DNA of 64,000 nucleotides from positions 1 through 64,000 of the forward strand of contig SGPL01000134.1 of NCBI GenBank assembly GCA_004802705.1, given 5' to 3'. Within the stretch, counting starts at the first letter, position 1. Every line of letters begins with the position of its first letter. A program made the translations under genes and the position numbers. Below are positions 1 to 48,607 of this stretch, one piece after another. The notes under the pieces are model-generated. The model did no database searches. It was not told the DNA's origin and was given only the letters and a program-made list of their open reading frames with translations. The DNA is from Bondarzewia mesenterica (Eukaryota; Basidiomycota; Agaricomycetes; Russulales; Bondarzewiaceae).

Positions 1-719
1 CTATCCTCCCTCCCTCCATCAGTGCTAACCACATCACCATCCTGGCCAGCAACAGTAGGCAGGCTCGGCGTCAGCATATACCCCGACTCGCCAAAGTCAC
101 CAGCGGTGATAGTGGCACAGGCAATGGATCGGCTCTCGGTGGGCCCACCTATCCCTCCTGCCCTATTCCCCTGACCTTCCCTGTCCCCGCTGCCCTAACA
201 ACAGCACCGACTGGACTGCCTACATTGCTGCCGCCCCAGCCCCAGCCGACTGAGGCTGAAAAAAAGTTGGAATAGGTGGACGGGTGGCAGATCCAGCTGC
301 AGCCAGAGTTGTCGGATGAGGACATGGACCGCAGCAGTATCGATGGTGAGGCCAAGGGTGAGGCTGCCAGTGGGCAGATGCCAGAGGATCAGCTCAAGAG
401 CAAGAGCTGATGCCTCTTTTTTTTATATACACATAGCAGACAGTTTGTTTTTTCCTTTTTGTATTCATAATAGATGCAATTTCATACTCCTTCAATGCTT
501 CAAATACTGAGCAAGGTGAATTACAATAAAACAACGAAACAATGCCATCGCCGATACCATCACCGTCCCCACACTGGCCTCTACCTCATGTCCACTACAT
601 GCTATCGGCGACGTGACTTATTCCCCATGTTAGTGTACATCCAATGATATGTCTAATTGGTCACCTATATTTTGGCATTAGACGTGCTCGCCACCAATCA
701 CAATCGAGTGTGCATTTCC

Positions 720-3700
720 AGCGGACTTGGCTCATATCCCCTTTTTGGCCTTGATGGCTTTGTGTCCACCTGAAATTATGCTCAATATATACATCTCGTA
801 AGCAAATCCAAGAACAACTACCTTTGGATTCATACAGCAACGTGTTCTGGAAGCCTTCGCCGAGTCATTCTTCAACTTCTTATCAGTGGCCTTCACTTGA
901 GACTCACTGGCAACCACCTTGTGCCACTTCGCTGAGGATTCCTCAGCTTTTGCCATTGCTTTTGCCGATAGCTTCCTCTTTCGGGGAACAGCGACCTCTG
1001 GCGTGCCTTCTCTAATAGAGGCATCCTCCTCAGCGTCCTTCTCAGCTTCCTCCTCAGCTTCCTCGGCCTCTTGTTACAAGTGAGTCATCCCAGAAAATAC
1101 ATGTACTCAAGGTGACTTACCTTTTCTAAGTCCATCTCCTTCGGTGACCTCACCGATACTTCACCAGTGGCCTGTTCCTCTGCCTCGCCAAGGGCCATAT
1201 CCTGGTCTTCATCATTGGCCGATGCCGGCGCCGGTTCAGTTGTTGGCCCAGCCTCCTCAGTGGCTGCAACATCTAGCCTTGTCTCGGAAACTGGGGGTTC
1301 AGTCTCCAAATCAAGTCTTTCATCAATGCATGCACAGCCATATTCGATGAATCTAAATTCACCTCATCATCACCAGTGGCATCGGTCTTAGCCACCTCTA
1401 GGAGTTCTCGAAGATTAAACTTCGACAACATTGTTTGTAATTCNGAGTTCATCTCCTCCACCTCTTCAGGTTTGATGGTCACCAGCTCAGCTTTCTCGGC
1501 CTGTTGGAGTGGCTTTAGCAGGGCCTCGGTAATCTGGTTAGACATCGTGACTGCCAGCAAGTCACATGCTGAAAAGTCCAGCTGTGTGGTCAACATATAC
1601 AGTGGAATTTTGCTGGTGGTGGTGGCATTCCCATCAGCATTGGCACCAGGATCTTCATAGAACTGAGCTTAGTGGCTGTCATTTAATAGCATCTCGATGG
1701 CCAGTGCAATGAGCCACAGATCCTCCTTCAGCCACAGCATGCCATCCTCACCGAGATGCAGATTCTCGGTGAGCCACATTGTCAGTACCTCCTCACTCTC
1801 CATTGAGGTGTGCACCAACTCGAGGAGGTATAGACTGTCATACTTCTAGTTGCACCAGGGGGGTTACTGTCAGTGGCAGTGAATGGATGATTATCCTAGG
1901 TCAAAATCAGCATAGATTCTACTATAGAGGTTAACCAGTCATACCTCATGCTCTAGGATGGCAGACAACATCATCCTGTACTCAACTTGGGCACTGAGGT
2001 TGAGCAGGAAGCTCATCTTACTCATATCACACTGGGTATAGGTAGACACCAGCGAGATGGTCAGATTGATCACTGAGGGGTCAGCCAACAATTCCTCAAC
2101 TACAGTCTTCCACTTATCAGAGACTGTCTGAGAGACATCGGCCTTATCCTCACTATCACTGTCACTGTCATCCCCCATTAGCTTCTCAAGCTTGGCCTCA
2201 AAGTTCTCCTCTGCCTCCTCCATTATCACTGTGCTTTCCTCCACCTCCTCAGAGGGAGGGATGGCCTTCTCCTGTCCTTTTGCTGAACCATTCGCCGAAG
2301 TCGATGCTGACCCTGATGCTGACCCCAATGCCGATGCCGATGCATAAGCCTTGCCCTTTCTTGGCTTTCCTTTCTTGGTCACAGTTGATGTTGCTGACTA
2401 AACCTCACTGTCAGATGCTTGATATGACTTGAACACCACCAGGGCCTTGCCGTCTGTTTGCTGATTATACCAATGGTTCATCCACTTAGTAATTATTTCT
2501 CAAACCAGCTTTGATAGCTCTTTGACAATAAAGTCATCTGGAAAATACTCGTCGGTGAGGTATTCACCTCGCCATTCCTTCAACTCCCCCTATGGCACTG
2601 ATCCCTTTGCATTCTCGCTCGTCACTCTATACTTTTGTCAGTACATGAACACCATGATGTCTGATTACAACATATGGTATGCAGTTGTCATCACCACCCT
2701 CACCAAGCCCTTCATTTGCTCTAGATCGAAGGTCTTGTCCTTCTCTGGCGATGGCAACATCACCCTCCCATCCTCAGCAGTGACCAACTTAGGAATCAGC
2801 TTTTTTTCTTTTCTTCACTTCCTCCTTGGCCTCTTTTCTGACTTCTGTGGTACCTGTCACAGACATGAGACATACTCCCACACATCATCATCTACAGAAT
2901 GCTCACTGAACACCTTATTAGTGTAGTCTGCCCATTCCTTCAGAATGTTGCCGGTGTTCCAATTCGGATGAGAATTCATGAATGAAGTCGATCCATTCTC
3001 CTCATTGAAGTCATGATTGAAAGAACTAGTAGGTATCAGCCATCACCGAGACCACCACCGAGGGCAAACTCACTAAGTGTACACTGGCTTGCTATCCTTC
3101 AGCACTGTCACTGAGAAAATAAATAACTTCATATTCAGTTGCCAGAACATCTGGCCGGTGAACTCCTTCACATATTGATTGGCATGCTCGGTGAGCCTAT
3201 AAATATATCAATTGGTATGTCACTGGAGATGGAAAAACAAACTCACTCTCTCTGTTTTTCGGCTGATGAATGCACCATGTTCCATTTTTTAGCCAGCTCT
3301 TGGAACTTCACCATGTCCTCTGAGCTCACTGAATCCCTCACCACCCTCACTCCATCCTAGTAGTGGGAGATATAGACTTGGAAATCCTTCAGCATCACCC
3401 CATGATGCTCTAGGATGTGGGCCTCAATGTCCTTCCTTTTCATGAATTTCAGGACCTCCAGTTGGGTCCATCACCAGATGTTAGAGATCTTGTCCTTTCT
3501 TTCCTTCTTGTTTGTCTTCGAAAGCTTTGATAGCAAGTATCTGTGCATCAACTGTGAGTGGTCAGTATTATCTAATCACTGAAAGGACAAATTGACCAAC
3601 CTTCTGAAGGCTAGAGGTATACTGTGTATGCCTGAGGGGTTGGGGCAGGATATCTTCCTTTGGCTTGTCTTGGGTCATCAAGAATGCCCATGACCTCTCC

Positions 3701-3792
3701 AAGTCCTTCTGTACTCTCGCCGCCACCTCTCGCTACTGTTTCTAGCTATCTTTCAGAAACTTGGTTTCTGTGTTGTTGAAGGGGGAGGCCAT
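720..3792 (-). pseudogene. Decayed transposon-associated gene, unknown family
   Basis: A reading frame can be followed from an ATG at 3792 (start MASPFNNTETKFLKDS) leftwards for about 3 kb. It switches frame and crosses isolated stops, several of them TAG or TGA where Gln, Trp or Arg would fit. The middle part has an Ala/Ser-rich linker and an acidic SDSDSED stretch (about 2160-2380). The longest intact pieces are at 1939-2382 and 1273-1596. I do not recognise a domain. The low CpG, broken frame and proximity to a KDZ remnant suggest a gene carried by an old transposon. Function unknown; the boundaries are approximate. Confidence 0.4.
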
Positions 3793-4019
3793 GCTGTCCA
3801 TTGCAGATAACTTATTCAGAAATGGATGTATGGAAGTACTTATCATAAAAGAAGGTAGATGTCGATCCTTTTGGCCCAGCACCCATTATCTTTATATGTC
3901 AAATGCTATGCCTGTTGTTACGTCGGACATGCCATAATATTTTTAATCTATATATCTGATACTACCTTCAAAGCATGAAATAGTTTGTGCATTGCCAATG
4001 ATTTTGCCAAGGGCCTCAG

Positions 4020-4195
4020 TGGCAGTGATAGAGCATCGAGCTAGGTCGGCCAAGGCTTTAGTGGTAGCACCAGTGGCAGCAATGGCAGAATCAGTGGCAA
4101 CATCAGTGGCAGCGTCAGCGGCAGCATCAGTGATAGCATCGGCGGCAGCATCGGCAGCAGCATTGGCAGCAACAGCATCAATAGCAATGGCTGTT
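4020..4195 (+). repeat. Degenerate GCAGCATCGG-type simple repeat
   Basis: A run of imperfect short repeats (gcagcatcg, gtggcagc, gcagcaac units) would encode Ala/Ser/Thr if translated. It resembles the Ala/Ser linker of the neighbouring pseudogene and is probably a decayed coding repeat, not a gene. Confidence 0.5.
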
Positions 4196-5109
4196 TTATG
4201 CCTGCAGTGCTTGCTGAACTAACTGTCTTGTCAAAGCCCTGTCTACTTGCTAAAAAAAAATGTTCTTTAGTCACACAAGTCAGGTTTTGGCTATGGACCA
4301 GTACCCACAATATTAGTTTATACATACAGACCTTTTCTATAGCTGAACATGCCTGCTCAGCAATAAAACACAGCATGACAATGTGCCACTCCATTCATCT
4401 GCACTTTATTCTCTCAGTACAAGTCTCTATGTCATGTTTGCCAACTCATCACTAGATACATTGATTTTTAGGATTGGAAGGAATGACTTTGCCTTGACAT
4501 GTGTGAGATGCAGCCAAACTGATGAAATGCATCTCACAAGTCCAATGTCTGACCACACTCTCTTCAAACTGAAAACAGTCTGGCTCACAGCAGATTGTTG
4601 GTTATAAATTAGTGCTTTATCAATTATTCACATACAAGTCTCCCTAATATCAGTCAGTGGAGGGACACAACAATAGATTTGTGTTTGCAAAATGCAAAAG
4701 TGTTGAGGCAAGCCACTGGCAGTTGCAATGCCTGTCCTTACTCATGCACACTCATCCCTCAGCATATTTTGGTGTTCAGCAAGATATCACTGTCTGTGAT
4801 TGCTAAACCCAATGTCTCGTGCTCCATCATCCCCTCTTGGATTGTGATGGAGAGAATGAGAGATGACATTGTGCAAGTGGCCCAGTGTTGCAGCCAGTGC
4901 AGTTGCCACATTGGGCTATGAGTGAGCTTGCAAGCCCAACAGGCAATTAATTGCACACCTGCCATGGTCATGGCAGTCAAGCTCACTGTATGATCAATTG
5001 ACAAGAATGAAAATGAGTTGTAGCCCATTTGAGCCCCCATTGAGCTATAAATTCTCACACTTGCCAAGCAGGCACTGCTTGTGATGCCGAGTGATGATGC
5101 CAGCCCAAA

Positions 5110-5117
5110 TATATAAA
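5110..5117 (+). promoter_or_regulatory. TATA-box-like site before a decayed gene
   Basis: TATATAAA lies 73 bp before the ATG at 5190 that opens the plus-strand remnant. It is probably a relic promoter. Confidence 0.25.
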
Positions 5118-5189
5118 GGCAAGGGCCATCATTGTTGGCCAGCTCATCATCTACTTATATTCCCCCCACTTCCATTATACTCCCTCATC

Positions 5190-6100
5190 ATGATGTCTGA
5201 TAGTCAGAGTGCCAAAAAGCCTGTAGAGTGGATGCTGAGGCAGACTGAGCAGTTTGCCAAGTACTTGGAGTAGGATCTGCAAGACAAGCTGGCTAGTTGG
5301 CGAGCACGAGGGTCAGTCTCACTGAGGATGGCAACATCATCCTTGTCAGTCCAACAGCTATTTGAGTGTGATAACATCACTGATGTTGTCATCACTGCGT
5401 ATGCCTCGCCGAGTGAGTTGGATTGATCTTGTTAGAAATATGAAGGCTAACATTTCTTAGTCATAGTGAATTGGGATTTTCAGTGGTATGCTGGCCACGT
5501 TCACCATAGAAAATGTGACCCCGATAAGGGCACCAAGGTGATGTTGGAAACAAGGTACCTGCTGCTGAATGAGGATGCTTCACCACTTCATAAATTGCTA
5601 GTGATAATTGTGGACTGATACAGCATCATCAGCTTATGGTATTTGCCAGCAATTCTGACCTTGAAAAGACAAGTGAGCGGTCACTGATAGGAATCAACAT
5701 CGATACTGAAACTGAATGTATTGAAGGGGATCATTTAGGAATCAACAGCGAAGCTTTCACTGATGCACCAGCCGAAGGCCACAGGTAATTGGAGGTATAA
5801 TTCAAACCTCTTCAGCATAGCTGAGGAATACACTGGAATGGATCTCAGCACAGTGGAAATATTGCTGGGGTGATTTAAACAGGCCCATGATGTGAGTATT
5901 TAGTTATCGCCATCGGTGAGTTTGCTAAAGAAAAGATGGCAGTTGTCGAATCACCTCTTAAAGCCATCAGCGAGCTTGACTAGGAAACACTCCAAGCTGG
6001 GATGTCAGCAATGGATTGCTGAATTTGCTGAATCATCTGCCCTCCTCAGTGCCATCTTGAGCCTCATCAATCCTGACCAGTATCAATGTGGACTCTAATC
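5190..6100 (+). pseudogene. Decayed TE-associated gene, plus strand
   Basis: Starting at ATG 5190, the translation MMSDSQSAKKPVEWMLRQTE runs to a stop at 5271. It continues as protein-like sequence (DLQDKLASWRARG, then QLFECDNITDVVITAYASPS) up to a possible splice donor near 5415. A second protein-like piece follows a cag acceptor near 5480. The stop at 5271 is a single TAG in otherwise coding-like sequence. No known domain is recognised. It sits just upstream of the KDZ remnant on the same strand and shares its CpG-poor character, so I infer a gene of the same old element. Right boundary uncertain. Confidence 0.35.
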
Positions 6101-6653
6101 AATTTACAAGCTCGGCAAGATTAGCTCACTCACCGAGATCGCTTGCCGATAGCCTTCTGTCTTCACCAGCATCTTGGTAATTGCACAAAGAATAACTCCC
6201 CCTCACCATAATGGCCAGGCTAGGCATAAATGATACGATCTCCTCGCCACTGTCAGGCCATATTGACATGCTGTCATAGAGCTCCCCGGCATCAGTCTCC
6301 ATTTCAAATACAACTCTGGAATGGTGGTAGGATTTTGTGAAAGAGTTTTCGCACATTTAGTCTTAGAGGTGGATGGCGAGAGGGTTTGTATCGCATTCTT
6401 TATGTGAGATAACGTTCATGAGCGGCTGGGAATCAAGGCAGCAGGATGGATGGAAATGGCCAAATTTAACAGTCTTATCACTACTGGTGGTTTGCTGATG
6501 CCGACGCTGATGCCGACACTGACCGATGCTAGTTACTTGTAGATTATCACTAAAATTGCCTTGCATTTACTAGCATATCATTTGTCAACAAAATTATCTG
6601 ATGATGCATATAACATTCTGTAATTCACTGTCTTCCTTTCAATCTACTATACT

Positions 6654-7230
6654 ATGGGGTCTGGCAGGAGAAAATGCATTCAGCCCCCTATTCAGTTTAT
6701 TATCTATCGAGAGAAGCAGACCAGTCGAGGCATCAAGACTGTAAGGATCCTAGTCAATAAAGGCGCAGGGCCTTCTTCACCGATGAAGGCTCCATCGACC
6801 TCTATCCCTCTCCCTGACTATAACCTTGATAATGACATAGATGTCATGTTAGAAGTCATCTCAGTCCATAGTAAAAGCAAGGGAAAGGTATGTCACCAGG
6901 CCACAAACTATTAGCGAGAAATGGACTGACTGAGTTATAGAGTCAAAATGACTACATGCGAGACTAAATCCCGAGAATTGGGGAATACTTAGACCACTTG
7001 CTGTTCATGGAATGCCCCCAGGAAGACTGGCAGTGTGGCCTTTGCCATGTAGTCAAAGGGACCTAGTGATGCCTCAACTGCTTTGGCTGGCCAATCTTAT
7101 GCACTGGATGTTGTAGGGAGAGCCATGGCTGAATGCCATTCCACTGAGTGGAGCAGTGGATGGGATCTTATTTTTCACTGACATGGCTTTGGCAAGCCAG
7201 CATCAGACTATACCTCAGCCATGGCAGAGA
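6654..7230 (+). pseudogene. KDZ transposase N-terminus (CxC2 cysteine cluster), decayed
   Basis: The first exon starts at ATG 6654 and ends at a GT donor near 6888. After an intron ending in ATAG, the frame reads SQNDYMRD, stop, IPRIGEYLDHLL, then a cysteine cluster CGLCH...CLNCFGW...CTGCC followed by MPFH, VEQWMGSYF and LTWLWQASIRLYLSHG. The order Cys pairs, PFH, EQW.GS.F, WLWQ.. and HGR is the signature of the CxC2-like cysteine cluster that precedes KDZ (Kyakuja-Dileera-Zisupton) transposases in basidiomycetes. Five in-frame stops (6965, 7064, 7067, 7130, 7145) lie where Trp or Arg is expected, matching C-to-T or G-to-A change at TGG and CGA. The catalytic transposase domain is absent: the frame ends at 7230, where an inverted-repeat terminus of another element begins. 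Confidence 0.75.
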
Positions 7231-7262
7231 AGGCCCCCTGCGTATGCTACAAGAGGTTGTAT
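7225..7262 (+). repeat. Left arm of outer inverted repeat
   Basis: AGGCCCCCTGCGTATGCTA (7231-7249) and its surroundings match, inverted, the sequence at 14047-14065. Similarity extends more weakly inward for a few dozen bases (TTGTAT, then TTTGGCC) and outward into CAGAGA. It lies exactly where the KDZ reading frame stops, so it may be the terminus of an element that inserted into KDZ. Confidence 0.6.
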
Positions 7263-8078
7263 TTAAAATCATGCCTTTTTGGCCTTTCCATCCACATGCT
7301 TTTTGGGCCACTTCCATCAGCAAGAGTGATAGGACCACTCGATTTGGGCCACTTTCATCAGCAAAACCAGATACAACCTCTCAACCAGGCCTCTTCGTCC
7401 GCATAAACAGATCGGACCTAGCAGACCCGTCATTTTGTACGCATAGTGAATGATTTTTACACATATACACATATAAATTGTAGCTGTAGCAAGGTTCTAT
7501 TCCTATCAAGCCTGATCTTCATTGGCAGCAAACATATTAAGAGATCAAAAATATGTGGATGCTTGAACAAAATGGGATACTTACTAGCTGAAAAGATCAT
7601 GAAACACAACATGATATAGGGAAAAAATGGCCGTGATGATCAAGACGAGCAACGGACATCAGGACAGGGAAATCCAGCAATATGTACGTGAGTGAAACAT
7701 GTGGTCTAGCAGGACGATCATTGAAATTTTGAGCGCGCTATCCATTTACAGCAACGAAGGTACTTACTGGACAAGCAACAATGAAAAGAGCATGTTTTGG
7801 ATTTGGAACACTCAGTTGTCCGTTGAAGCAATGCTATGCTAAAGGATATGCAGGCTAAGACTCGAAAAGCTGTCTGATGCGTACAAAGATACCATAGTAG
7901 GAGGCAGGGTGTACAGCCTGTTTCGTCCTGTTTTCATCACTTTACTTCTGCCAGTGGCAGCACCGTGACAGCCGGCAGCAAACATCTACACACATACATA
8001 AAAAATAAAATGACATTCATTGTGCATTGATGTAGTGAAAGTTCATTTGACTGGAGTCGAGCGACGCCCATGATCCTG
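7263..8078. other. Non-coding stretch between repeat ends
   Basis: About 800 bp with no supported gene. Two direct copies of TTTGGGCCACTTYCATCAGC occur near 7303-7362. The rest is AT-rich. It probably contains the inside of the outer element, plus the remains of another copy of the 8108-13883 transposon that ends at 8099. Confidence 0.4.
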
Positions 8079-8099
8079 TTGTGAAGAGTTGCCGGGTCC
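8079..8099 (+). repeat. Second right-end terminus of the Ulp1/P-like transposon family
   Basis: TTGTGAAGAGTTGCCGGGTCC resembles the right end of the complete element at 13860-13883 (TTGTGNNGNGTTGCCGGGGG, then TCCT), with a short deletion. It is also followed by the same octamer CCATCCGT. This looks like the right terminus of a neighbouring decayed copy abutting the intact one. Confidence 0.5.
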
Positions 8100-8107
8100 C
8101 CATCCGT
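8100..8107 (+). repeat. Left 8-bp target-site duplication
   Basis: CCATCCGT directly abuts the left terminal inverted repeat and is repeated exactly at 13884-13891, directly after the right terminal repeat. Length 8 bp fits P-element-like or hAT-like transposition. Confidence 0.8.
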
Positions 8108-8122
8108 AGGACCCCCGGCAAC
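8108..8122 (+). repeat. Left terminal inverted repeat
   Basis: AGGACCCCCGGCAAC is the exact reverse complement of 13869-13883. TATGTTC follows at 8134-8140 and also occurs at the matching distance inside the right end (as GAACATA), extending the imperfect repeat. Confidence 0.85.
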
Positions 8123-8146
8123 CCACCAAAATGTATGTTCTTCCCA

Positions 8147-8281
8147 CGGTAGTCCAGCGGCGCGTAGCGCCGCAGCTCTGAAATTTTTCCGGTAGTTGGG
8201 GTATCGAAAATGGGTCAGTATCTATGAAATTTCTCCGGTAGTCAGTTCCCTGTGGCTGAGGTCTGATCTGATTGCGGTAGT
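8147..8281 (+). repeat. Left subterminal CGGTAGT repeats
   Basis: Four exact copies of CGGTAGT start at 8147, 8190, 8236 and 8275, spaced 43, 46 and 39 bp. A fifth, one-base variant (AGGTAGT) is near 8286. Subterminal arrays like this are usually transposase-binding sites. Confidence 0.65.
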
Positions 8282-8590
8282 CTAGAGGTAGTCTAGTCAT
8301 CGGGTTGTCAAAAGTTGTCAGTTCACCAATCCGCCCCTGTCCACCTGAATCTGACAAACAAAAGAGTCAAAATATTTTCCCGTTGTTAGTCCGTTATGAG
8401 GGATACCAAATCTATCTCAAATACTAGCTCAATATAATTTTTATCCAATTCGCACCCCCCTCAACGCCGCATCCCTTAATGACATTTTCAAAGTGCCTCC
8501 TTACGATATATTGACTGCTTCTCTTCTCGACCTGCTTCCCTTCTCAGCTTCTCAACATCTTGGCATCCTCCGTGCATCATAGAGTTTGGA

Positions 8591-10045
8591 ATGAACAGCA
8601 TTCAGATCTACAGCGATGATGATATCCCCGAGTTTCGTCACGAGTTATGGATTCGCAATGGGAAAAAATATCCTGATGATCCTTCCCAAGTTCCCCCTGA
8701 GCTTGAAGCCCACATCGACATCACTACTCGCATACCCCTCGACTATGAGACTGCCCTACTGCCTAATGAAGATCTCTCTGTGCGCGATTTCATACGTCTG
8801 AACCTGCCGCAACAAGAGAAAAATTTAGTGGCCGCTCATGCTCACTTAATGTTCAAAAGCGACCCACCGAATTTACAGGCATCTGTACTCCATGGCCGAG
8901 ATATACCACACCGAGAGTTTGTGAAGGAGGCAGTACAATCTGTTGGCCAAGCAATCCTAGATGGCGCGCTCGCAGTTTTGGATGGACGATATGCAGGTGG
9001 GCGCTTACCACTATGGACTATCACATATTGGCGCAGGATGGACATTATCTTGGAGACCAAGATGATCTGGAAGCAGGCAGAGGATTGGTTACTGTGTCAG
9101 CATGTTGGCGCTGCCATACAAACAACTGCCGCCCACCTGCGCACCCTTCCATGGTCTGAAAGGACTGATATTCCTGGTGCATACTCACGCACACGAACAA
9201 TGGACTTTGCAATGCTCCTGTCAGATGGAATGATCAGTACCGGAGTTGTGGACTTGATGGTACATTGGATATCCGAGAAAGCGAGGGCCAGTGATGAAGT
9301 CCGCGGGCGCTATGTAGTTGTGGGTCTCAAATTTTGGACCGAGCTGGACAAGGCTCATAATCATGGATATTTCACCTCCTCGCCTATTCCACGCTTTCTC
9401 GAGAGATTGGAGAAGAAACTACGTACCGGGGAGAAGACTTTATTGTTTTCAGTCTTCTTGTCAAAGCATAAACACTTCATCGCGATGGAAGTCGACTTTA
9501 TGAAGGCGGCAATAGCATGTGGTAAGTCGACTGTGATACATGCACATGCTGATGATCAACTTACTTACGTGGATCCGTCTGCGCAAAGGTGATAGCTTGC
9601 ATCACCGTGACTCCATCGTGCCGACCACTGTCATTCGCAAAATTCAATGGTGGACGGAGGTGAGGATGGGTGGCAAGTTCCAGTGGAAGGGCGACACTAT
9701 GGCCCATGGTAATCAGTCAGATTGGGTATCATGTGGAATCTATACTGCCAACACCATCGCCCATGCTGTGCTCAGCGAAACATTGTGGGATGCCTCACAG
9801 ACTGCTGTCGAGCGAGCAATATGGTTTAATAGATTAGCTGAGGCACATATCGCATCGGTGAGNNNGGNAAAAAAAACTGTAACTCGTTGTGGTACTTACT
9901 ATACTCATTGCATTAGACAGTTGCACCGTTCATCGACTCATCCATACTGCAAGCTGCGTTCATGAAGCCAGTCACCATTCCACATGATATGGGGGATCTG
10001 TTAAACCCAAGCACAGCTGGAGATTTAGCTGAAGTGTATAGCAAG
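8591..10045 (+). CDS. Ulp1-like (C48-type) cysteine protease domain encoded by the transposon
   Basis: Starts at ATG 8591 (MNSIQIYSDDD). The first exon runs to about 9520 and a roughly 60-nt intron ends in cgcaaag at 9590. The joined frame gives HKHFIAMEVDF, then IACGDSLHHRDS, and later GNQSDWVSCGIYTANTIAHA. This is the His...Asp...Gln-x(n)-Cys order of Ulp1/SENP proteases: His in HFIAMEVD, Asp in GDSL, Gln in NQSD and the nucleophile in SCGIY. About 300 residues upstream are unassigned. A second intron with Ns (9863-9868) leads to a third exon ending at 10045. Splice phases would allow reading straight on into the transposase exon (after cag near 10157), so this may be the N-terminal half of one fused protein. 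Ulp1 proteases cleave SUMO-like modifiers, but the target here is unknown. Confidence 0.75.
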
Positions 10046-10157
10046 GTGCAGGACTCAAAATCGGTGTCAGACGACGGGCACATGCAAAGTTACAGCAAAA
10101 ACTTACCTTGCCACGATAATGGATGAGCGGACTCCCCATCCACACCCGAATATCAGT

Positions 10158-13100
10158 CTTCTGAACTGATGATGATAGACAACGAGGAGATGGGATACGA
10201 CACAGAGGATTTCAATGAGAATCAGTTTGGAGTGGACGTACCGTGGCCATCCGACACTGAAGCTTGTACCGTCAGTCGTGCTGCGTCAACTATATCCTCT
10301 GATACCGACATGATGGACCTTAGCGCCGCACCTTCACCTAAGAGCAGGGTCGAAGGGATTAGAGCCAAATCGGATAGTGCAGGAGTATACAGCATTTTTG
10401 CTGAGACACGCCAGAGAGCGGAAGTAGCTGCAAGAAGGAAGTTTTTCGTTGACTTGGTGAAGACGATGGTCCTGAAGAAGGACAAGAAGCTTTGTGGTGT
10501 TGGAATGCAAGGCTTCAAATACGCTCCTGATGTTCTTGAGTTTGCCCACATCATCAGTGTACATAGTCCGCGTGCGTATCAGTCCATACGCGAGCTTCTC
10601 CAGCTGCCAGACATTCGGACATTACAGTATGTGTCTGATTTTAGATTTCTGTCGGTGATTTGACATTGTTATTTGCAACAGGAGGCATCGCGCGCGTCAA
10701 GGTGGATTACCTATAGGTATAACAGAGCGCACGTTCGAGCTCGTCGTTGAATTTCTGACCAAGCTCGAGTGGAAGGGCCCTGTTGGGTTGATGAGCGATG
10801 ATACCAAGCTGATGGCTGCGCTGCGACCTTATCGTGATGTGGATGGCAAGTTATACATCTTAGGAGGGACGGGAGAGCCTATGCTTTTAGTTGATCCCGA
10901 CGCTCTCATAAGTGCTCTACGCAGTGGGACAATCAAGAAGGGTACGAAGGTATCCTTCAAGTTCATTGCCTTGTTATGCATATTATGCTGATGTTCGATG
11001 CCCAGGTTCGAGTCGTGTGCCTTCAGGTGCCAATGCCTAATATTCCAACATTGGTCGTCGCTGCACTTGCTATCACTGATGATATGTCAGCGGATAACCT
11101 ACTTCCGTATCTACAGTCAATCCTCAATGGCCTTCTCAGGCATCAAATCCAGGTTATATCGTATGCAGCTGATGGGACGGGCACGGAACGAGCGCTCCAA
11201 TGAAAGATTACAGAAACTGCAACTAGCTTCCGCTCGTACATCATCCACCATCCCGAAGACCACCGACGCAACATAGATCTTCGTATACCATGCTTCGGAA
11301 CGCAGCAGCAGCCGATCGCAATGGTGCAAGACCCCCCACATTTGCGCAAAACTGTTCGCAGCAACAGCTACTCGGGTGCACGACTGCTCACCCTCGGCAA
11401 CTACTCCGTTCTTTATAGCCACTTCAGAGACATTGCCGCCGCCGATAACGGGACCTTGTATAACAGGGATGTCGAGAAAGTTGACCGTCAGGACGACAAC
11501 GCTGCGACACGTTTGTTTTCCGCCCACACCCTGGACTGGCTGACCGAGAATCATCTTGACTGGATTGGATCAATTATTTATCTCTTCATCTTTGGCGAGC
11601 TCGTTGATGCATACGAGAACCGTCATATCAAACTGATTGAACGAGTTCATCTTATTCTTCGCACTCTTTTTTTTTTTATGGAGGCCTGGGAAGACTTTCT
11701 TGATCGGGCGAAATATCCAAAATCCAGGCATTTCCTGTCCCATGAAGCTTGCGACATCATTCGGTTTGCAACTCGTGCTTTACTCCAGCTGGTTATCATC
11801 TACCGGGATCATCTTGATGGTGTATATCCCCTTCTCCCCTGGCTACTCTCCACGGCAGTTTGCGAGCACGTTTTTGGCATCTGTCGACAGATCATCAAGG
11901 ACTTCACCATGCAAGATTTTCACCATATGGTTCCGAAACTCTACGTGCATTTGCGAGAACACTTCTTCTTCTCGCATTCATCGGATGGGAAGGCTCGCGC
12001 TAGTGGCTACAACCACACATACACAGATAGTCGCAAAATTGACCTTGCCGCTTTGGCGATGTACCCGACGGATGCGGAGATTCAACGTGCTGCAACGGCA
12101 GCATACGAGGAGGCACATGGCCTGTGGGAGATACTCGGGGTTGAAGGACTTCGCAATCAGACTGCCGTCGTCCTGCGGCTCCCATCTATCCAGTCCTGGT
12201 TTATCAATCCTCTCGTTGGCTCTGACGAAAAAGTCGTCGACACGCCAGTTTCTGATGTCGAATCTGAGGTGGGTGACGAGGATGAGGAACCGGGGACGCG
12301 ACAAGGAATACAGGAGGCTATGGAATGGCTCGAGGATGAGGTGACTCTCCCACACGAAGACGATCAACTCAACTCACTCGCCTATGCAGCTATTTCCCTC
12401 TCCGTTCAGGACTCTATGCATATGTAAGTTTGTCTTTATGTCTATCAGAGCTGGGCCCTCATTTTTGTGTTTCTGGTCATTCTCGCAGTCGAGGTCTCCC
12501 GGAATGTCAGCTAGATACCTATCAGTCTGATGCCGCAATGCTCGGACAAATATTGGCAGGTTGTCTCTCGCCTATCAATGATCCGAACGAGCGAGCTCAC
12601 CCAGCAACACACCAAATGGAGCCTGCTTCGCTCAACTTCAAGACGCTTGTTGAGCTTCGGATGGAACACCAGACAGTGCAGGCAGACAAGGGTGTTCGCT
12701 CGAAGGGAAAGGGGAAAGAACAATCAGCAGGAGAATCGGAACGACAGGCCCTGCTTCGTCAATACACAGAGATCCTGCATGACCGCGAGGAGCGCGGCAT
12801 CACCACGGGAAATGCGCGCTCAACGCGGTGGACTCGACATCCCACGCGCGGAGGACGAGATGGACAGGTTGATGGGCAAGTAGCTGATGCGCCCGCACCG
12901 GGAAATGAAGCAAATGCAGCTGAGGTTGCTGGCACCAATGCCAATGAGGTACGTGTTGTTTCAATCCATCCATCCATGCTTTCATTGTCAGGCTCACGGC
13001 TGCGTTGTTGTACTAAGACACAAAATCGGAGGGCAAAGATTTTCAGGAAGCACAGGCTTCCGGCATTCGTCGAGGCAGCGAATATAGCACCGGAATCACC

Positions 13101-13630
13101 GCTACTTCAGGCTGGAAATGGCTTAGAAACAGCATCGAAAAATGGATCATCGTACGGATTCGTCTTTTATTCAGACAGTATATGGCTAGCGCAGGGTGTG
13201 TAGTAGTGCATTTCTTTTCCTTTTCTTCAACTTCACTCACTTCGGCTTCTTAGTCCTCTCAGTATATTCCAAGTCAGCGGGCAAGAACGGCAAACATAGC
13301 TGGGTTTCCGACTCTTCAAAAATCACTGCCGTTTCGTACATTGCTGCGCAGCTTTTCCAGCCTGTTGCGCCACGGCAATTCACCTCAATCCCCCGAGACA
13401 ACATGGGGCTCAAAGTCTCGAGATTCGCGCTGCTCAAACCGACATCATTCCTTGTCGTGCTCAAGGCTGTTCCGACACCCGCGGGTCAGAACTTCATTAT
13501 CTCGGCGCAGGACCACCAATATTATGCTGCATTGCAGAAGAAGCTTGCAAGCATTCGGGAGGCTATGAAGGAGATTAATGGTCGACGACGAATGGTTCCA
13601 GCGGGTGGTAGTGGTGAGGAATCAAACTAA
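10158..13630 (+). CDS. P-element/THAP9-like transposase, one premature stop
   Basis: Exons joined by hand read: an acidic linker with first internal ATG at 10169, LLQLPDIRTLQRHRARQGG, GITERTFELVVEFLTKL, VGLMSDDTKLMAALRPY (first catalytic Asp region), VISYAADGTGTERALQ (second Asp region), MVQDPPHLRKTVRSN, LFSAHTLDWLTEN and FGELVDAYENRHIKLIER. This order matches the RNase-H fold of P-element/THAP9 transposases, where a (D)PPHL.K..RN motif follows the second Asp. A C-terminal extension (12490-13630) is basic and low in complexity, then a conserved-looking tail SWVSDSSKITAVSYIAAQ. One in-frame TGA at 11201-11203 interrupts ERALQ/KITETATSFRSY; Trp (TGG) would fit. No zinc-binding THAP domain was seen. 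The frame is otherwise open, so inactivation would be recent, or the TGA may be a sequence error. Confidence 0.7.
11201..11203 (+). other. In-frame premature TGA in the transposase
   Basis: The codon after CTCCAA is TGA. Both sides are coding-like in the same frame and no splice donor or acceptor would remove it. A TGG-to-TGA change is the simplest explanation. Confidence 0.6.
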
Positions 13631-13749
13631 GCCGGTATCATTACTATCTAGTGTATGTATCGACATGAATAGCTACAGATGATGCGTAGGAGGCGAATTC
13701 GAATTTTTAGCGATTTTTTACGATTTTTTTGGATGTCTGATCCGATTTC

Positions 13750-13832
13750 CGGTAGAAAATGACCTTCTCCGGAGGTCTCTGCAATTCCCGGTAGTCAGAC
13801 GGCGCCGCAGGCACCCCCCAGCTCACGGTAGT
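13750..13832 (+). repeat. Right subterminal CGGTAGT repeats
   Basis: CGGTAGA at 13750 and CGGTAGT at 13789 and 13826, spaced 39 and 37 bp. They have the same plus-strand orientation as the left array, so the arrays are direct copies, not mirror images, at the two ends. Confidence 0.65.
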
Positions 13833-13868
13833 TTGCNTGTTTTGGCGGAACATATCCNNTTGTGNNGN

Positions 13869-13883
13869 GTTGCCGGGGGTCCT
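13869..13883 (-). repeat. Right terminal inverted repeat
   Basis: GTTGCCGGGGGTCCT is the exact inverse of 8108-8122. Ambiguous bases lie just inside it (13837, 13858-13868). Confidence 0.85.
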
Positions 13884-13891
13884 CCATCCGT
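13884..13891 (+). repeat. Right 8-bp target-site duplication
   Basis: CCATCCGT, identical to 8100-8107, directly follows the right terminal repeat. Confidence 0.8.
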
Positions 13892-27624: not shown

Positions 27625-29458
27625 TCAGGCCGCCGGGGTCGCGTCCGATTGGGGCTTCTTACCGAACATGGGGGTGATTTTCCGGTTGGCGTTCATGAAC
27701 GCGCGGACCTGGTCGTCTGTAACCTTGGCCCTTTTCTAGAAATGGCCGAAAAATTTGTTAAAACGAACTAGCAGGTTAAAAGTGAAAGCTGCCTTGACGC
27801 ACGTCCTGGAAATCCTTGACGAACGCCTGGAGCACCTGGACACACTTCGCCTTCAGCTGGCCAGTGAGAAGACGGCCGGCACGGTATTCCTGTTCAGCGG
27901 ATGTTATGAATACAAGACCTTCTCAATAAGCAAAGATTTCACAAACCTTGCCAATATTTTCAAGTTCCTCATCGTCCTCCAGGAAGAAGCTCAGGTACTG
28001 ATAACTGACATCGACTTCCGTGTCTCCACCGAGCCTCCTATGCTCCTCCTCCGTCTCCTTTCCGCCACTGAAGCCATGACGATTGATCTTGGTTTTGATC
28101 TGACCGGGTGCGTCGGTCATGAAAATGCTGGAATTGACGTCCGATGCGCTCATCTTCGTCTGTGGGCCCTGGAGCGCGGGGAAAAACTTGGCGTGCAGGA
28201 GAGCGGGCTTTGGGTATTTGAGCTTTTGCGCGACGTCGCGCGTCAGGCGGAAGTACGGGTCTTGGTCAATCGCGCAGGGGATCAGACTCGGGATGTTGGA
28301 TGCCTCGCCGAAGATGTGCGGGAATGAATTGGAGAAGGATGGTGCAGCTTGGATCGCGGCGAAGTGGATCTTCCCGATGTTATCGCTGCAGGCCACGCCG
28401 AGGAACCAACAAGTGACGAGAAAAAGAAAGCGGAAATCAGATTGAGTGAGAAGGGGAAGGAATGAGATGTGAGACTTGCGAGTCATTGAAGCCGAAGGTC
28501 GCTTTCGCTTGATTGAGCGTGATCTGTCGCGAGATCTTCGACACGTTTCTGTAGAACGGTCCGCCGACGTAGTCATAGTCGCTGAATATAAACGTCTTCT
28601 CGAGGTCGAACCCGACCGCGATGATGTCGCGCGCGTTCTGGAAGGCATACTTGTACGTCTGTTCTACCTTCAGCTCGTGCTTGAACAAGAACTTTTCGTC
28701 ATCTGCATAACGTCGTAAGAATTTATGTAGGAAGTGGCATACGAAAGGCTCTACCTGTCAGCTGGACAACGAGTGGTACGTTGAAGACATCCTGCAACCA
28801 CCTGAGATGTGTTGGACCGAGAAGATACACGGTGAATTTACATGATACGTACTTTGTGAAAACGAAGGGGATCATGTGTCCGAGATGCATGCTGTCGCTA
28901 CTTGGACCGCGGCCCGTGTAGAGGAAGAACGGCTTCCCCTGCTCGTAGCGATCGAGGATTTTGTCAAACTCACTGTATCATCCATCGTAATCAGCTACTA
29001 AAACATACTCATCCGTGCCCACCATCGCTGTCGTTTCCCAGCGAGCCGACGCGGAAACGTCACTTACCGATGCGAGAAGAAAGTTCCCCGACGCAGCAGG
29101 ACGTGTGGCCTATGCCCCGTCAACCGCTCAAAGCGCTCCAGCAGCACATTGTCAATGCGCCGCGTCCCAAACTGGTCGATCAGCTTGTCGTAGTCAATAG
29201 CGAGCTGCTGGCCGTCACTCGACACGGAACCCTGCACATCCCACGGCGTTACCACTTGCGCGTGTGCCGTCGACGGGTCGGCGGGCTTGATCGCGTGGGG
29301 CTCGTGCGGCGCATGTTCTGATGGACTAAAGAGTCCGTGAGATGCCTTGTAAATTATGCTTGGACGGCCAAGGACCGATGAACTCACGATGAGAGGGACG
29401 TCGCCTCCATCTTGCTCGCCAGGGCCTCTGCTGGGGTAGATGATGCAGGATCGCTCAT
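27625..29458 (-). CDS. WRS1: Cytosolic tryptophanyl-tRNA synthetase
   Basis: ATG at 29458 begins [20 protein letters not shown]. Exon 2 contains [25 protein letters not shown] and RRGTFFSHR, then [20 protein letters not shown] (the class I HIGH-type motif is HLGH), [44 protein letters not shown] (the KMSKS-type ATP loop) and [20 protein letters not shown]. The last exons are [40 protein letters not shown] and [20 protein letters not shown], ending at TGA 27625. This is the eukaryotic cytosolic form, charging tRNA-Trp for translation. No WHEP extension is visible. Several short introns; all key motifs are intact. Confidence 0.95.
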
Positions 29459-31986: not shown

Positions 31987-34900
31987 TCAGAGCTCGTCGT
32001 CACTGACATCTTCGCCTCTCTTCCTGCGCGCCATGCGCTCCTTCTTGAGCTGTACGGTGCAATGACGAACATCATCAGCATCACCTTCAAAAACAAACGA
32101 CTGTGAGTGCTTACCTTGCGAGCCTCAGCGGACGTGATCTTCTTCTGCTTCTTGTTATCAATCTTATTACCCATAGCGTCATACTGGTCCTCCTCCTGGC
32201 CGTCCTTCTTGTCGATGCGGGGCCCTGAGCCCTGACCCTCGACCCAGTTGTGCCCGGAAGCCTCGAGACGACCGTCGCGCATCGCCCACACCTCCTTGCA
32301 GATCGACTCCGAGAAGTCGCGGTTGTGGGTGATGATGAGCACGCCGCCTTCGAAGACTTTGAGTGCCTCAATCAGAGCAGCAAGCGACTCGCGATCGAGA
32401 TAGTCTGGACATAAAAAAGTAGATTCAGAAAAGAAAATAGAGAAAACGTCTGGGAAAGAGACACACTGGTCGGTTCATCTAAGCAGATGACGTGTGGGCG
32501 ACGCCAGGTTGCGGCGCCGAGCACGATCTTAACTTTCTGACCGCCGGAAAGACCGCGCATAGTGTTATGCGAGACGAACTCCGGCTCGAGTCCAAAGTCA
32601 GCGAAGTGCTGCTCAATCTCTCGACGAACAAGGGGACGGAGCAAACCAAGGCGTTGAGCCTCGCGGGTGTCGACCTCGATGACTTTCTGTAATGGAAATG
32701 GAATGTCAATGACCATTTTTCCGAAATAATATCAGGCAAGAAAATGGCAGCGCACCTTCTCGAATCCACGTTTGACAAGCTCGTCACGCGGCAGCCAGAT
32801 GTTCTCCGACGTGGACAAACCCTTAAACGATACTTCATACTCGTACGACTGCTTCAACTTCTTGCGATTCGTGATCTCGTCGATGATGCGCTTCTGGCCC
32901 TCGATGATAATGAGCGAGCCATCCTTCATCTTCTGGTGTTCCTCCTCGGAGATCTGGCGGTTCGCCTTGGTCATTTCCTCCAAATCTTCACCGGTCTGGT
33001 ACCGCCAGAGCATGTACTCCAACGGAGTCTTGTCAAGGTGATGATCGATGTGATGGAATGCATGCTGGGCGACGTAGCCGATGACCAAGTTCGGGTGCTT
33101 CCAGACCTCGCCACCCTTGTTGGATTCCATCTCGCCAGTGAGCAATTTGACGAGCGTCGACTTGCCAGATCCGTTGGGACCGAGAATGGCGACGCGGGAC
33201 GAGAGAGAGACTTGGAGTGTGATGTCGTACAGCTGCTGCACGGGCTGCGTGGGGTACTGGAAGCCAACCTTGCGCATCTTCAACAGGGACTTCTCCTTGG
33301 TCTTGACACCCTCGAGTAAAGGAGGATCGGGGAGCTTGAACTTGTAGTCTTCCGCGGCCTCGAGAGTGTAGTAAGACTTGGCTTCGGGGACCTGCTTGAC
33401 AAAACACTCGAGATTGCCCCTGTAGCGGCGCAGCTTGAAACGGTTCAGATGGAGGACGTCGGTAATAGTATTATTAAGGAAACCAGAGTCGTGCGAAACG
33501 ATGATGAAAGTGCAGTGAGTGAGGCTGGTGAGGTAGTTCTCCAGCCAGGCGACGTTGACGACGTCTAAGTGGTTGGTCGGCTCATCGAGCAAAAGGATAT
33601 CGGCCTTGAAAAGCATCGCGCGGGCAAGGGCGAGCTTCATCTTCCAACCACCAGAGAGGCTACCAATGGCATGTTGCTGCCGCTCGTCGTTGAACCCGAC
33701 AGAAGCGAGCGTCTCCACAATCTCCTCCTCGTCCGCAAGAATGCGTTCGTCTGAGAGAATGAACTGAAGGACAGAGGTATCCTCCTCACTGCCGTCAATG
33801 TCGTGCTCGACGTAGAAGGTGCGGACCTCGTCGGGAGATGGGAAGCCTTCGACTTGACTGGAAGAAAAAAGATAAGAATAGACGAAATGTCAATGATTAG
33901 TAGTGGCACATACCCATTGGTGATTGCACGCATCAGCGTCGACTTGCCGGTACCATTCTTACCGCAAAGTCCGTAGCGGTGACCACGCTTGAGACGGAGT
34001 GTCGCCGTGTTGAGCAAGATTTTGGCACCGTAGGCAAGGGAGAATTGGCAATTGCACAGATCTTCGCCCTCCTCCTCATCTTCAAGAGCCTCACCAACGT
34101 CCGCGTCCTCCGTGGCCGAGTGGACTACCCACTCCCTCGCAATCGTCAGAGACTCGGGATTCTGGGCAATGAAAGCAAGGTAGGGTGCGAGGGTGTCCCA
34201 CTCCGGCACATCGAAGTTCTTGGTATTAACAAGGTTAGCAGCGAGGCGCGCAACATAGATAGTGACCTCATCAGCGACAGAGGGCACAGGGTTCGCGCCG
34301 GCTTTCTTGTAGATCGAGATGAGCGAGTGTGCAAGCTGGCCGGACTCAGCTTGCTTGACAAGAGGGAGATCTGAGCCGTCGCCTGTCGGAATCTCACCGA
34401 CCTGGCGTAGCGTAGCAATCGCACGACCAACCACACTGCGGGCCTCAGGGTCGCCAATGGTGGACTCAACCTTGATCAGACCGGGCAGAAGCTTGGGAAT
34501 AAAAGGCCTGACGGTGACAGCGGAGTCAACGAGCTTCGCCATGTTGTCCACGATGCTGTATTACAAATTAGCGTCTTCGTCTCACAAAAGGAAGACGCAG
34601 GAACAAAAAAAAAAATACTTACACAGCAACCTTACGTTTGGTGGCAGTGAGTTTCTCCGAGAGACCACGAGAAAGAAGGGGGACCATGAGAGAAAGGGTA
34701 GGAGAATCGACTTCAGAAACGAAAGTAGTGGCTGAGAGGAGCTGAATCGTATTCGGAACCTCTTCGACCGGATTAATGAGAGCTTTAATAAGAGCAGGAA
34801 TAAAGCGTTCAATGTCCTTGTTGGACACGAGGGCCGTTGCCTTCGTGAGCGACTCGCGCGACGCCTTCTTCACATCTGCTTTGGTGTCCCAAATCGCCTC

Positions 34901-35479
34901 GGAAAGGACGGGGACAATGTCGGGCATGAGCTTGGCGGTCTGGACTGGGGCGCTTACGACGAGCTGGTTGAGAACAGCGAGCGACCCAGTCTTGACCTGC
35001 CACTTGCCGGCAGTTTTGATCTCGTGAAGGAGCGCGGGAAGAAGAAACGCAGCACCCCAGGGGTTTGCCTTGGATACGTACGCCCGAACGGCCTCCACGG
35101 CTGCCGTCCGCACGGCGGGCATCTTGTCAGCAAAAGTCTCCAGCAAGGCGGCATAGAGACCAGAGTCGACAAAGGATGGCTCAAGAGCCTGAACGGCAGT
35201 GTTGGCTATGATGATGACGGCCTCTGCAGCGCCCTCGCGTGCGGCAGGGGATTTCTTGTCAGCGAGAGCCTTGACAATGGCCTCGGCGAAGCCGATGGCC
35301 TTGAGGGCTGAAGGGCCATCCTTTTGAGCAAGAGCTGCGACAGCCTCAGAAGCGCTCTTGCGAGTAGCCTTGTCGGCAACAAAGAGGTTAGATGCGTCGA
35401 CTTGGCCATGGGCGGCAGCCTTAAGGGAAGTAGGGGAGGGGATGGTAGGGGCGACAGCGACGGCGGTGGTACCTGGCAT
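31987..35479 (-). CDS. TEF3: Translation elongation factor 3 (eEF3), ABC-F-type ATPase
   Basis: ATG 35479 begins [20 protein letters not shown]; an in-frame ATG at 35509 would add ten residues. The N-terminal third is HEAT repeats ([40 protein letters not shown]). The first ABC domain has Walker [17 protein letters not shown], signature [16 protein letters not shown] and Walker [13 protein letters not shown]. The second has [36 protein letters not shown] and VICLDEPT, with a chromodomain-like insertion (YKFKL... to [11 protein letters not shown]) between nucleotide-binding elements. The tail is basic, then acidic: [19 protein letters not shown], stop at 31987. eEF3 is the fungal-specific third elongation factor; it aids E-site tRNA release at each cycle. 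Introns are few and short. The gene is complete. Confidence 0.97.
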
Positions 35480-35945
35480 TTCTGATATTTGACTAGGAGA
35501 TGGCGCCAAGTCGTTGACGCTTCACAACAGGCGAAAAAAAAGGACCCACGGACCTTGAAAGACGAAGGTGCAAAATCTATCTAGGGCGATGTAGCACACA
35601 AAGGCGACAAGGACAAGGAACCTTCTATAAAATGACCAAGGGCCTTTATATGATATAAGTGTGTGGAACGAGAAGCTGGTGAGATGCAAGGAGGCATACC
35701 TCTAAAAAAACGAGGGAAAGGGTAGGAAGGAAGATGTGGAACGTTGTTGATGGCACAAATCGCTCGCTTATGAAGGAAACACAGCCACCGCAGTCGACCA
35801 AATGCGGGGAAACTTACCCCACAAGGCGCTCGCATATCGGAAAATAAAGGCGCATGGTGCGCTTGAATGCATTCGTTCGACAGCCATTTGACTAGCTACA
35901 GCCAGCATACGACGTACCATCTACTCGTTCCTCACCCTCCCGAAC
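35480..35945. other. eEF3 upstream region
   Basis: About 470 bp between eEF3 and the V-ATPase gene. Pyrimidine-rich on the minus strand, as in strong fungal promoters; no further gene. Confidence 0.3.
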
Positions 35946-48100: not shown

Positions 48101-48607
48101 CCTCTGCCACGCTTCAGTCTCGACGCTCGGAGGGGCGTAGCGCCGCAGGACGAATTCGAGTTGGATGCTTCTGCCCCTATCAGAGCCCTGAAACACACGC
48201 CCGATGCCTCGCCCGACATCACTAGCAGCCCCTCTTCTTCACGAAAAGAGCAGTCGGAACCGTTGCTGCAAACAGTGACCGAAGACGAAGAACGGCGGGA
48301 TCCTGTTGATCCTCCAAAGGAAGAAGATTACGGGGAGGTATGGGGCGAGCCTTTCAAGGTCGAGTGGATTCAAACCGAACGACTCCCGTTCTACCGCACA
48401 CGGAACCTACGTAACCCCTGGAACCATGGGCGCGAAGTGAAGGTTTCTCGAGATGGAACGGAGCTTGAGCCTGGAGTTGGGAAGGATCTCCTGGAGGAAT
48501 GGGCTCGGCCTCCACCCTCATCACCGACGATGCCCGCCATAATGCCGACACGATCTGGACCTCAGCGTCGAACACCTCGACCTCCTCCCCACAACCGCCC
48601 CCCATAG
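45141..48607 (+). CDS. RRM + YTH domain RNA-binding protein (m6A reader-like)
   Basis: Two short upstream exons (ATG 45141: MASLVKPSSFLESHLPAGSP, then DDPYPILQNYPPTEP) splice in frame into the long exon at about 45566 (VFYDLQSRLPSSSKHISSFH). A 400-residue Pro/Ser-rich disordered region follows. The RRM spans WVMWAGNVPSDATHDELWRF to SSIFLISRSNCAFVNF and ATARFNGQTIRPND. The YTH domain begins RYFPERYFILKSLTQ and, after an intron (about 47506-47568), FDLDLSVEKGLWATQRHNEG, VYLIFGVNKSGEFYGYAR. After another intron it gives MAGPISRGEQRVPWATP, then about 180 residues of insertion before GEPFKVEWIQTERLPFYRTR and NLRNPWNHGREVKVSRDGTE. The Trp in KGLWAT, and probably PWAT, line the methyl-adenosine cage. 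This layout fits the YTHDC1/Mmi1-type group. Stop at 48605-48607. Confidence 0.9.

Follow-up and report, generated by a model that had tools for sequence, protein, structure and literature searches.

P elements are textbook cut-and-paste transposons, which make 8-bp target duplications. In the basidiomycete Bondarzewia mesenterica (Agaricomycetes, Russulales), a segment of contig SGPL01000134.1 probably represents a defective copy of a P-superfamily transposon, the family of which is widespread in mushroom-forming fungi and bears a tethered probable deSUMOylase. Here we describe this element, compare it with the closest known systems and discuss what the fusion of a transposase with a Ulp1-type protease may accomplish. 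The stretch analysed comprises positions 1 to 64,000 of the contig (64,000 nucleotides) and is termed “the window”; coordinates refer to it unless another contig is named.

The transposases of Drosophila P and human THAP9 resemble the protein encoded here in their RNase H-like core fold, the PF12017 helix-turn-helix and, in the case of P, the 8-bp duplications. The catalytic triad of two Asp and one Glu (DDE) and a D-x2-H motif likewise correspond to those described (PMC8230255), and the second Asp and the Glu are 231 residues apart here versus 228 in the fly by the numbering of that paper. Unlike P and THAP9, the mushroom protein carries an N-terminal Ulp1 domain, a different zinc-finger region and an extra C-terminal part, is much larger, belongs to a fungal host and shows no THAP finger that could be found. 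One paper assigns the Pfam P family to insects and mentions distant homologues from an amoeba and a chromalveolate (PMC3985635).

A DDE transposase and a Ulp1 domain are also combined in one protein by Ginger1 of Hydra, where, however, the transposase is of the Gypsy-integrase type, the Ulp1 domain is C-terminal and the host is an animal (PMC2836005). Mutator-like elements of plants, hydra and lancelet, as cited in the same paper, are DNA transposons with a Ulp1 domain, but they employ a Mutator transposase, and the hosts named are plants and two animals (PMC2836005). The oomycete elements CryptonF and CryptonS are associated with a Ulp1-related C48 peptidase, which in some CryptonS resides on an additional protein; these elements differ in using a tyrosine recombinase and in having no inverted ends (PMC3212892). 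Finally, KDZ and Plavaka elements with a TET/JBP dioxygenase share the host class, Agaricomycetes, and an enzyme thought to counter silencing, yet their transposases are different and the enzyme acts on DNA methylation (PMC12730594). The main text of that paper contains none of the terms P superfamily, P element, protease and SUMO. The available part of PMC9674265, which shows hAT and Mariner elements to be the active DNA transposons of Marasmius oreades, contains nothing on the fusion, and neither does that of PMC6416283 on a P/Ulp1 fusion. Full-text searches of an open-access library listed no description of a P-superfamily transposon with a Ulp1 domain; most subscription papers and Repbase lie outside this scope, and a prior description is possible. 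To this extent the suggestion of a first-pass annotation of the window, that the family may be “little-described”, is supported.

Inverted ends and an 8-bp duplication mark the segment 8108-13883 as a cut-and-paste insertion. The outermost 15 bp match exactly (8108-8122 and 13869-13883), and with one mismatch permitted this end is found nowhere else in the window, nor in any of 100 shuffles. Judged from other B. mesenterica copies, the inverted repeat spans at least 33 bp, the inner part of which (to about 13851) is spoilt at the right end by uncalled bases (Ns) between 13858 and 13868. Reads of empty copies may have been mixed in at this point, since the called letters beside the Ns partly follow the empty-site sequence. 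In the 33.1-Mb assembly (844 contigs), the 33-bp left end has 20 matches with up to three mismatches, the window's own N-spoilt right end not included, while a reversed control pattern has none. Both ends are present at seven loci, the window counted. Identical 8-bp duplications flank five of them (window, C168, C277, C79 and C239); at C410 the duplication agrees save for one N, and at C128 the flanks are unmatched. The window copy is flanked by an exact duplication, CCATCCGT, and all three paralogous flank copies examined are uninterrupted at this position, with one CCATCCGT and the insertion absent (alignments of 931, 1283 and 625 bases, 91-97% identity), which renders the element boundaries certain. 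The perfect inverted ends and the flanking duplication reported in the first-pass annotation are thus confirmed, and within B. mesenterica, the species in which ends and duplications were checked, the other copies have the same ends and not different ones. The left flank (7700-8099; also L055, L056 and L057) is itself a repeat present on six further contigs at 84-98% identity; its copies on C32 and C89 are partial, and three flank copies are the empty sites.

On one strand of the element, splice-compatible exons encode a Ulp1/C48 protease at the N-terminus and, after it, a DDE transposase. Nine exons and eight GT-AG introns form a single frame of 1496 residues, the sole interruption of which is the TGA at 11201-11203. 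The Ulp1 tetrad and then the DDE residues were located, the order of the two domains being that proposed earlier, and all eight introns keep the frame, in agreement with the suggestion that the splice phases permit one fused protein. The exon predicted to join the one ending at 10045, placed near 10158 in the first-pass annotation, exists in the model, where it starts at 10157. The deposited gene model EW146_g3772 corresponds to the window gene (97% identity over the queried 700 residues), mostly shares its introns and joins both halves, with a slightly different third intron; it skips the stretches of the catalytic Cys and of the TGA, and is a prediction rather than a transcript. Another B. 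mesenterica model, EW146_g2755, is 90% identical over 43% of the queried 700 residues, and the assembly contains no separate close match to P0003 (EW146_g9969), a third family gene named from B. mesenterica. The window contains no Rfam match at gathering scores.

The coupling of a Ulp1 protease to a P-like transposase in a fungus, which had been postulated from this single gene, recurs in many relatives. A query with the transposase part yielded 161 proteins at E <= 1e-3 among 7994 scored, and a profile of 16 relatives yielded 481 at E <= 0.01 among 7996 scored; the best 120 of each were used. The species names recognised among the matches listed in both searches all belong to Agaricomycetes. 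The Ulp1 block is present in 93 of the best 120 relatives, including all 84 of at least 1550 residues (two of them B. mesenterica proteins), and with both listings combined in 113 of the 150 proteins listed, including 104 of 104 long ones. Most full-length relatives are predicted as single proteins of approximately 1600-1900 residues, in which a linker of 113-405 residues (median 227) connects the Ulp1 domain with the zinc-finger region. Pairwise distances of the two halves correlate with r 0.85 among 82 proteins (at most 0.16 in 999 permutations), and the trees of the halves share 45 of 80 splits (at most three in 200 label shuffles); therefore, the fusion is old and mostly inherited as a unit. 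No relatives were confirmed in viral contigs or prokaryote genomes. Some of the relatives P0022, P0046 and P0143 (from Marasmius and relatives), P0110 and P0120 are named mitochondrial methionine-tRNA ligase or contain an unrelated domain (tRNA synthetase, SKN1/KRE6), and these oddly named proteins are apparently chimeric gene models.

A placement of the transposase in the P superfamily rather than hAT is supported by the predicted structure of the relative P0030 (mean predicted local distance difference test score, pLDDT, 80.4; core mostly above 90), for which Drosophila P transposase ranks first by a wide margin with both Foldseek and VIA-align. A window piece scores above the curated cut-off for the PF12017 helix-turn-helix, and 13 of 27 relatives match this family at E <= 0.1. 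Among the 84 long relatives, the catalytic columns are D640 (84/84), D745 (82/84, two gaps) and E976 (76/84, eight gaps), and the D-x2-H signature is formed by D798 (82/84) and H801 (83/84), the columns being assigned from the alignment and not by residue-by-residue superposition on the fly structure. The triad is complete in 74 of these proteins, and all ten incomplete triads are gaps. The P0030 model shows a helical insertion (helices between residues 511 and 642), a candidate counterpart of the GTP-binding insertion that P-superfamily cores have between the second Asp and the Glu, and a putative zinc-finger region of the relatives is read from conserved Cys/His columns only. A THAP zinc finger has no Pfam match in ten window pieces nor among the nine families matched by the 27 relatives. 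Hence, of the earlier designation “P-element/THAP9-like”, the P superfamily stands (Foldseek, VIA-align, PF12017), while the narrower likeness to THAP9 is not supported. The core is not closest to hAT, no hAT dimerisation domain was detected, and a search of NCBIfam with five relatives gave nothing meaningful. Residues 1050-1180 (approximately) of P0030 form a confidently predicted, beta-rich C-terminal domain, for which Foldseek returns very weak matches to small barrel-like proteins.

The protease half contains the Ulp1/C48 residues His, Asp or Asn, Gln and Cys in C48 order, and sequence profile and fold both assign it to Ulp1/SENP. Since 82 of the long relatives themselves went into the block profile, independent support comes from PF02902 and the match in PDB. 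The tetrad is complete in 71 of the 84 long relatives (Asp or Asn allowed), and tetrad and triad are both complete in 66. By conservation, Cys, His, Gln and Asp take ranks 3, 4, 6 and 20 among the 396 columns of the Ulp1 block, the median column of which is conserved to 36%. This argues for selection on catalysis, although divergence is greater in the block than in the transposase (mean distance 0.70 versus 0.51). The protease is most likely an active SUMO (or SUMO-like) isopeptidase. A model of exon 1 gave nothing significant against a library of viral structures. A helical domain that covers about the first 190 residues (window positions 8591 to about 9160) precedes the Ulp1 fold. It has no clear fold match, though the match list was filled by the Ulp1 half; its Trp at residue 160 is present in 81 of 81 relatives with a residue there.

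The element had also been described as near-intact, which its comparison with a sister copy rules out. A second coding copy on contig C803 (L015 1174-7689), about 97% identical to the window copy, is missing the element's first 393 bp and has 1138 bp that are absent from the window copy at 10441. The extra stretch reads as coding sequence, with P-C-P-G-L and adjoining Cys/His columns common to relatives; therefore, it is the window copy that carries a deletion, in addition to its in-frame TGA. The two copies differ by 129 substitutions, of which 123 are transitions and 92 fall within CpG context. The window carries C or G against T or A in C803 at 95 of the differences, and 28 transitions run in the opposite direction. 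The differences are spread over the codon positions as 43, 36 and 40 (about 1496 sites each), with six in 545 intron sites and four in 335 other sites, introns differing less than exons. Codon positions thus differ equally and no purifying selection is seen between the copies. Given the lack of codon-position bias and the preponderance of transitions, mostly in CpG, both copies appear to be decaying and look like methylation-driven fossils. Five contigs carry short copies of 607-621 bp that have the same ends; four of these copies are 97.7-98.4% mutually identical, and the fifth is 92-93% identical to the rest. Their shared ends and duplications suggest that the transposase also moves non-autonomous copies of approximately 600 bp. 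One short copy (L016, C168:39500-48400, about 604-7981) is split by a nested insertion of about 7.4 kb, which contains a tnp2-type open frame (Transposase_21, below the curated cut-off, E 3.4e-4) and is probably a CACTA/Plavaka-like element.

Table 1. Coordinates of the insertion and its gene model in the window
Feature	Position	Strand	Basis
Left target-site duplication CCATCCGT	8100..8107		present once in each of three paralogous empty sites
Left terminal inverted repeat (33 bp), matching the right end exactly over the outer 15 bp	8108..8140	+	genome matches
Exon 1: helical N-terminal domain and first half of Ulp1 fold; catalytic His 9473-9475	8591..9521	+	
Exon 2: Ulp1 Asp 9591-9593, Gln 9714-9716, Cys 9732-9734	9589..9857	+	
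Exon 3: start of linker; open to TGA 10124-10126 if next intron unspliced	9917..10045	+	
Exon 4: linker, deletion point 10441, P-type helix-turn-helix (PF12017)	10157..10626	+	
Deletion point; 1138 bp of sister copy (putative transposase zinc-finger region) missing	10441..10441		
Exon 5: first catalytic Asp 10800-10802 of RNase H-like core (DD 10797-10802)	10682..10949	+	
Exon 6: second Asp 11171-11173, TGA 11201-11203, D-P-P-H (Asp 11330-11332), predicted helical insertion, Glu 11864-11866	11006..12423	+	
Exon 7: C-terminal part	12489..12948	+	
Exon 8: C-terminal part	13018..13195	+	
Exon 9: C-terminal part and stop codon	13263..13630	+	
Right terminal inverted repeat, outer 15 bp; inner part obscured by Ns	13869..13883	-	
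Right target-site duplication CCATCCGT	13884..13891		empty sites

Host genes in the surroundings code for a class I tRNA synthetase (27926-28663), elongation factor 3 (32735-35521), a V-ATPase subunit (36150-37199) and a YTH/RRM RNA-binding protein (45453-48604).

In the mechanism that we propose, a single chain would comprise, from the N-terminus, the Ulp1/SENP cysteine protease, the long linker, the zinc-finger region (deleted in the window copy), the P-type helix-turn-helix and the RNase H-like DDE core interrupted by the helical insertion. The transposase part would cut at the 33-bp ends and insert with 8-bp duplications, and the tethered protease would be carried to wherever the transposase binds. 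There the transposase itself, or local chromatin or repair proteins, may be stripped of SUMO or a similar tag, which would relieve SUMO-dependent silencing or inhibition, in line with the anti-silencing or regulatory role suggested in the first-pass annotation. Analogies come from other systems: added SUMO1 weakened the enhancement of Sleeping Beauty transposition by a host cofactor (PMC10138897), and the Ulp1 domain of Ginger1 has been proposed to act in transposition or repair (PMC2836005). More tentatively, and with somewhat less than even confidence, the family may be viewed as an undescribed, old and diverse branch of mushroom P elements, in which the same polypeptide would cut DNA and locally counter SUMO-dependent silencing, a counterpart of TET/JBP at the protein level. 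In many members, an N-terminal peptide similar to a SUMO-interacting motif (SIM) might then aid in finding SUMOylated targets. Such hydrophobic-acidic peptides occur within 30 residues of the N-terminus in 37 of 101 proteins, compared with 18.5 on average and no more than 32 in 500 shuffling trials.

Several observations weigh against the proposal of a fused, catalytically active deSUMOylase. The SIM pattern is loose; it also scores 24/101 in residues 31-60 and 3-18/101 in eight of nine other stretches, and it is absent from the N-terminus encoded in the window itself. Conserved active-site residues do not identify SUMO as the substrate, and the structural matches include NEDP1 and bacterial enzymes bound to ubiquitin. 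The exon-1 model has no significant match in a Foldseek search of PDB. In 13 of the 84 long relatives the tetrad is incomplete or unaligned (seven with gaps only, four with one substitution, two with more), some of which are probably gene-model errors. In the trees, five of the 46 well-supported splits for Ulp1 are at odds with a well-supported split for the transposase, and SUMO-dependence of silencing in these fungi would be an assumption of the mechanism. The weak point of the gene model is the third intron (10046-10156): if it is left unspliced, the frame is otherwise open but meets a TGA, which in both B. mesenterica copies parts the halves and requires splicing or read-through. One transcript across both halves is a prediction of the gene models. 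Moreover, 27 of the best 120 relatives, all of at most 1418 residues, are without the Ulp1 block, and no retrieved relative of at most 1200 residues contains it.

The shared TGA, an in-frame ATG soon after it and these shorter transposases would suit two genes, a Ulp1 protein and a transposase made from separate messages and joined only by gene predictors. This arrangement appears improbable, as the halves share one frame in the window, the long models are fused without exception, and a query with the Ulp1 part alone found no stand-alone relative of about 245-775 residues at E <= 1e-3 among 7348 candidates. If the halves do form one chain, the protease might have no host substrate at all and act on its own polypeptide, freeing Ulp1 from the transposase in the manner of viral polyprotein proteases. 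The N-terminal position of the protease and the long linker fit such self-processing, which we nevertheless consider unlikely. Gly-Gly is the usual C48 cleavage signal, and it is not enriched in the linkers (36 of 84 contain any, compared with 40.7 expected by shuffling), which speaks against self-processing and leaves cleavage at Gly-Gly unsupported. The trees of the halves are congruent as well, though congruence suits either explanation.

Alternatively, the Ulp1 domain could have given up proteolysis and merely bind SUMO or SUMOylated chromatin, thereby steering insertion or localisation. The SIM-like N-termini of some relatives are compatible with a binding function, and so is a Phe that follows the catalytic His in the window copy, where 74 of 84 relatives have Trp; yet the high rank of the catalytic columns in a faster-diverging block makes loss of catalysis a poor explanation for the family. 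As to the transposase half, 8-bp duplications are also made by hAT elements, and Pfam matched no P-type catalytic-core family in the window pieces or the relatives. Zisupton elements make duplications of the same length (PMC12730594). A different superfamily, KDZ/Zisupton or hAT, with accidental P-like motifs is nonetheless scarcely credible: the hAT option is already refuted as far as the fold search reaches, the fold being nearest to P, and the nine Pfam families that 27 relatives match at E <= 0.1 include no KDZ family, a weak comparison, as Pfam missed the P core too.

On the preferred interpretation, a P-superfamily transposase with a tethered probable deSUMOylase, a mushroom branch with a fused Ulp1 domain would widen the P superfamily and offer an example from nature of a transposase and a probable deSUMOylase that have remained joined while diverging in parallel. 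Unrelated mobile elements, namely Ginger1, Mutator-like elements and Cryptons, carry Ulp1 domains too, and with a single-chain fusion that has a conserved active site, the question of why these domains recur becomes testable by one point mutation. Since the same fused protein recurs across many mushroom genomes, the findings suggest that these elements interfere with the protein-tagging system of their hosts.

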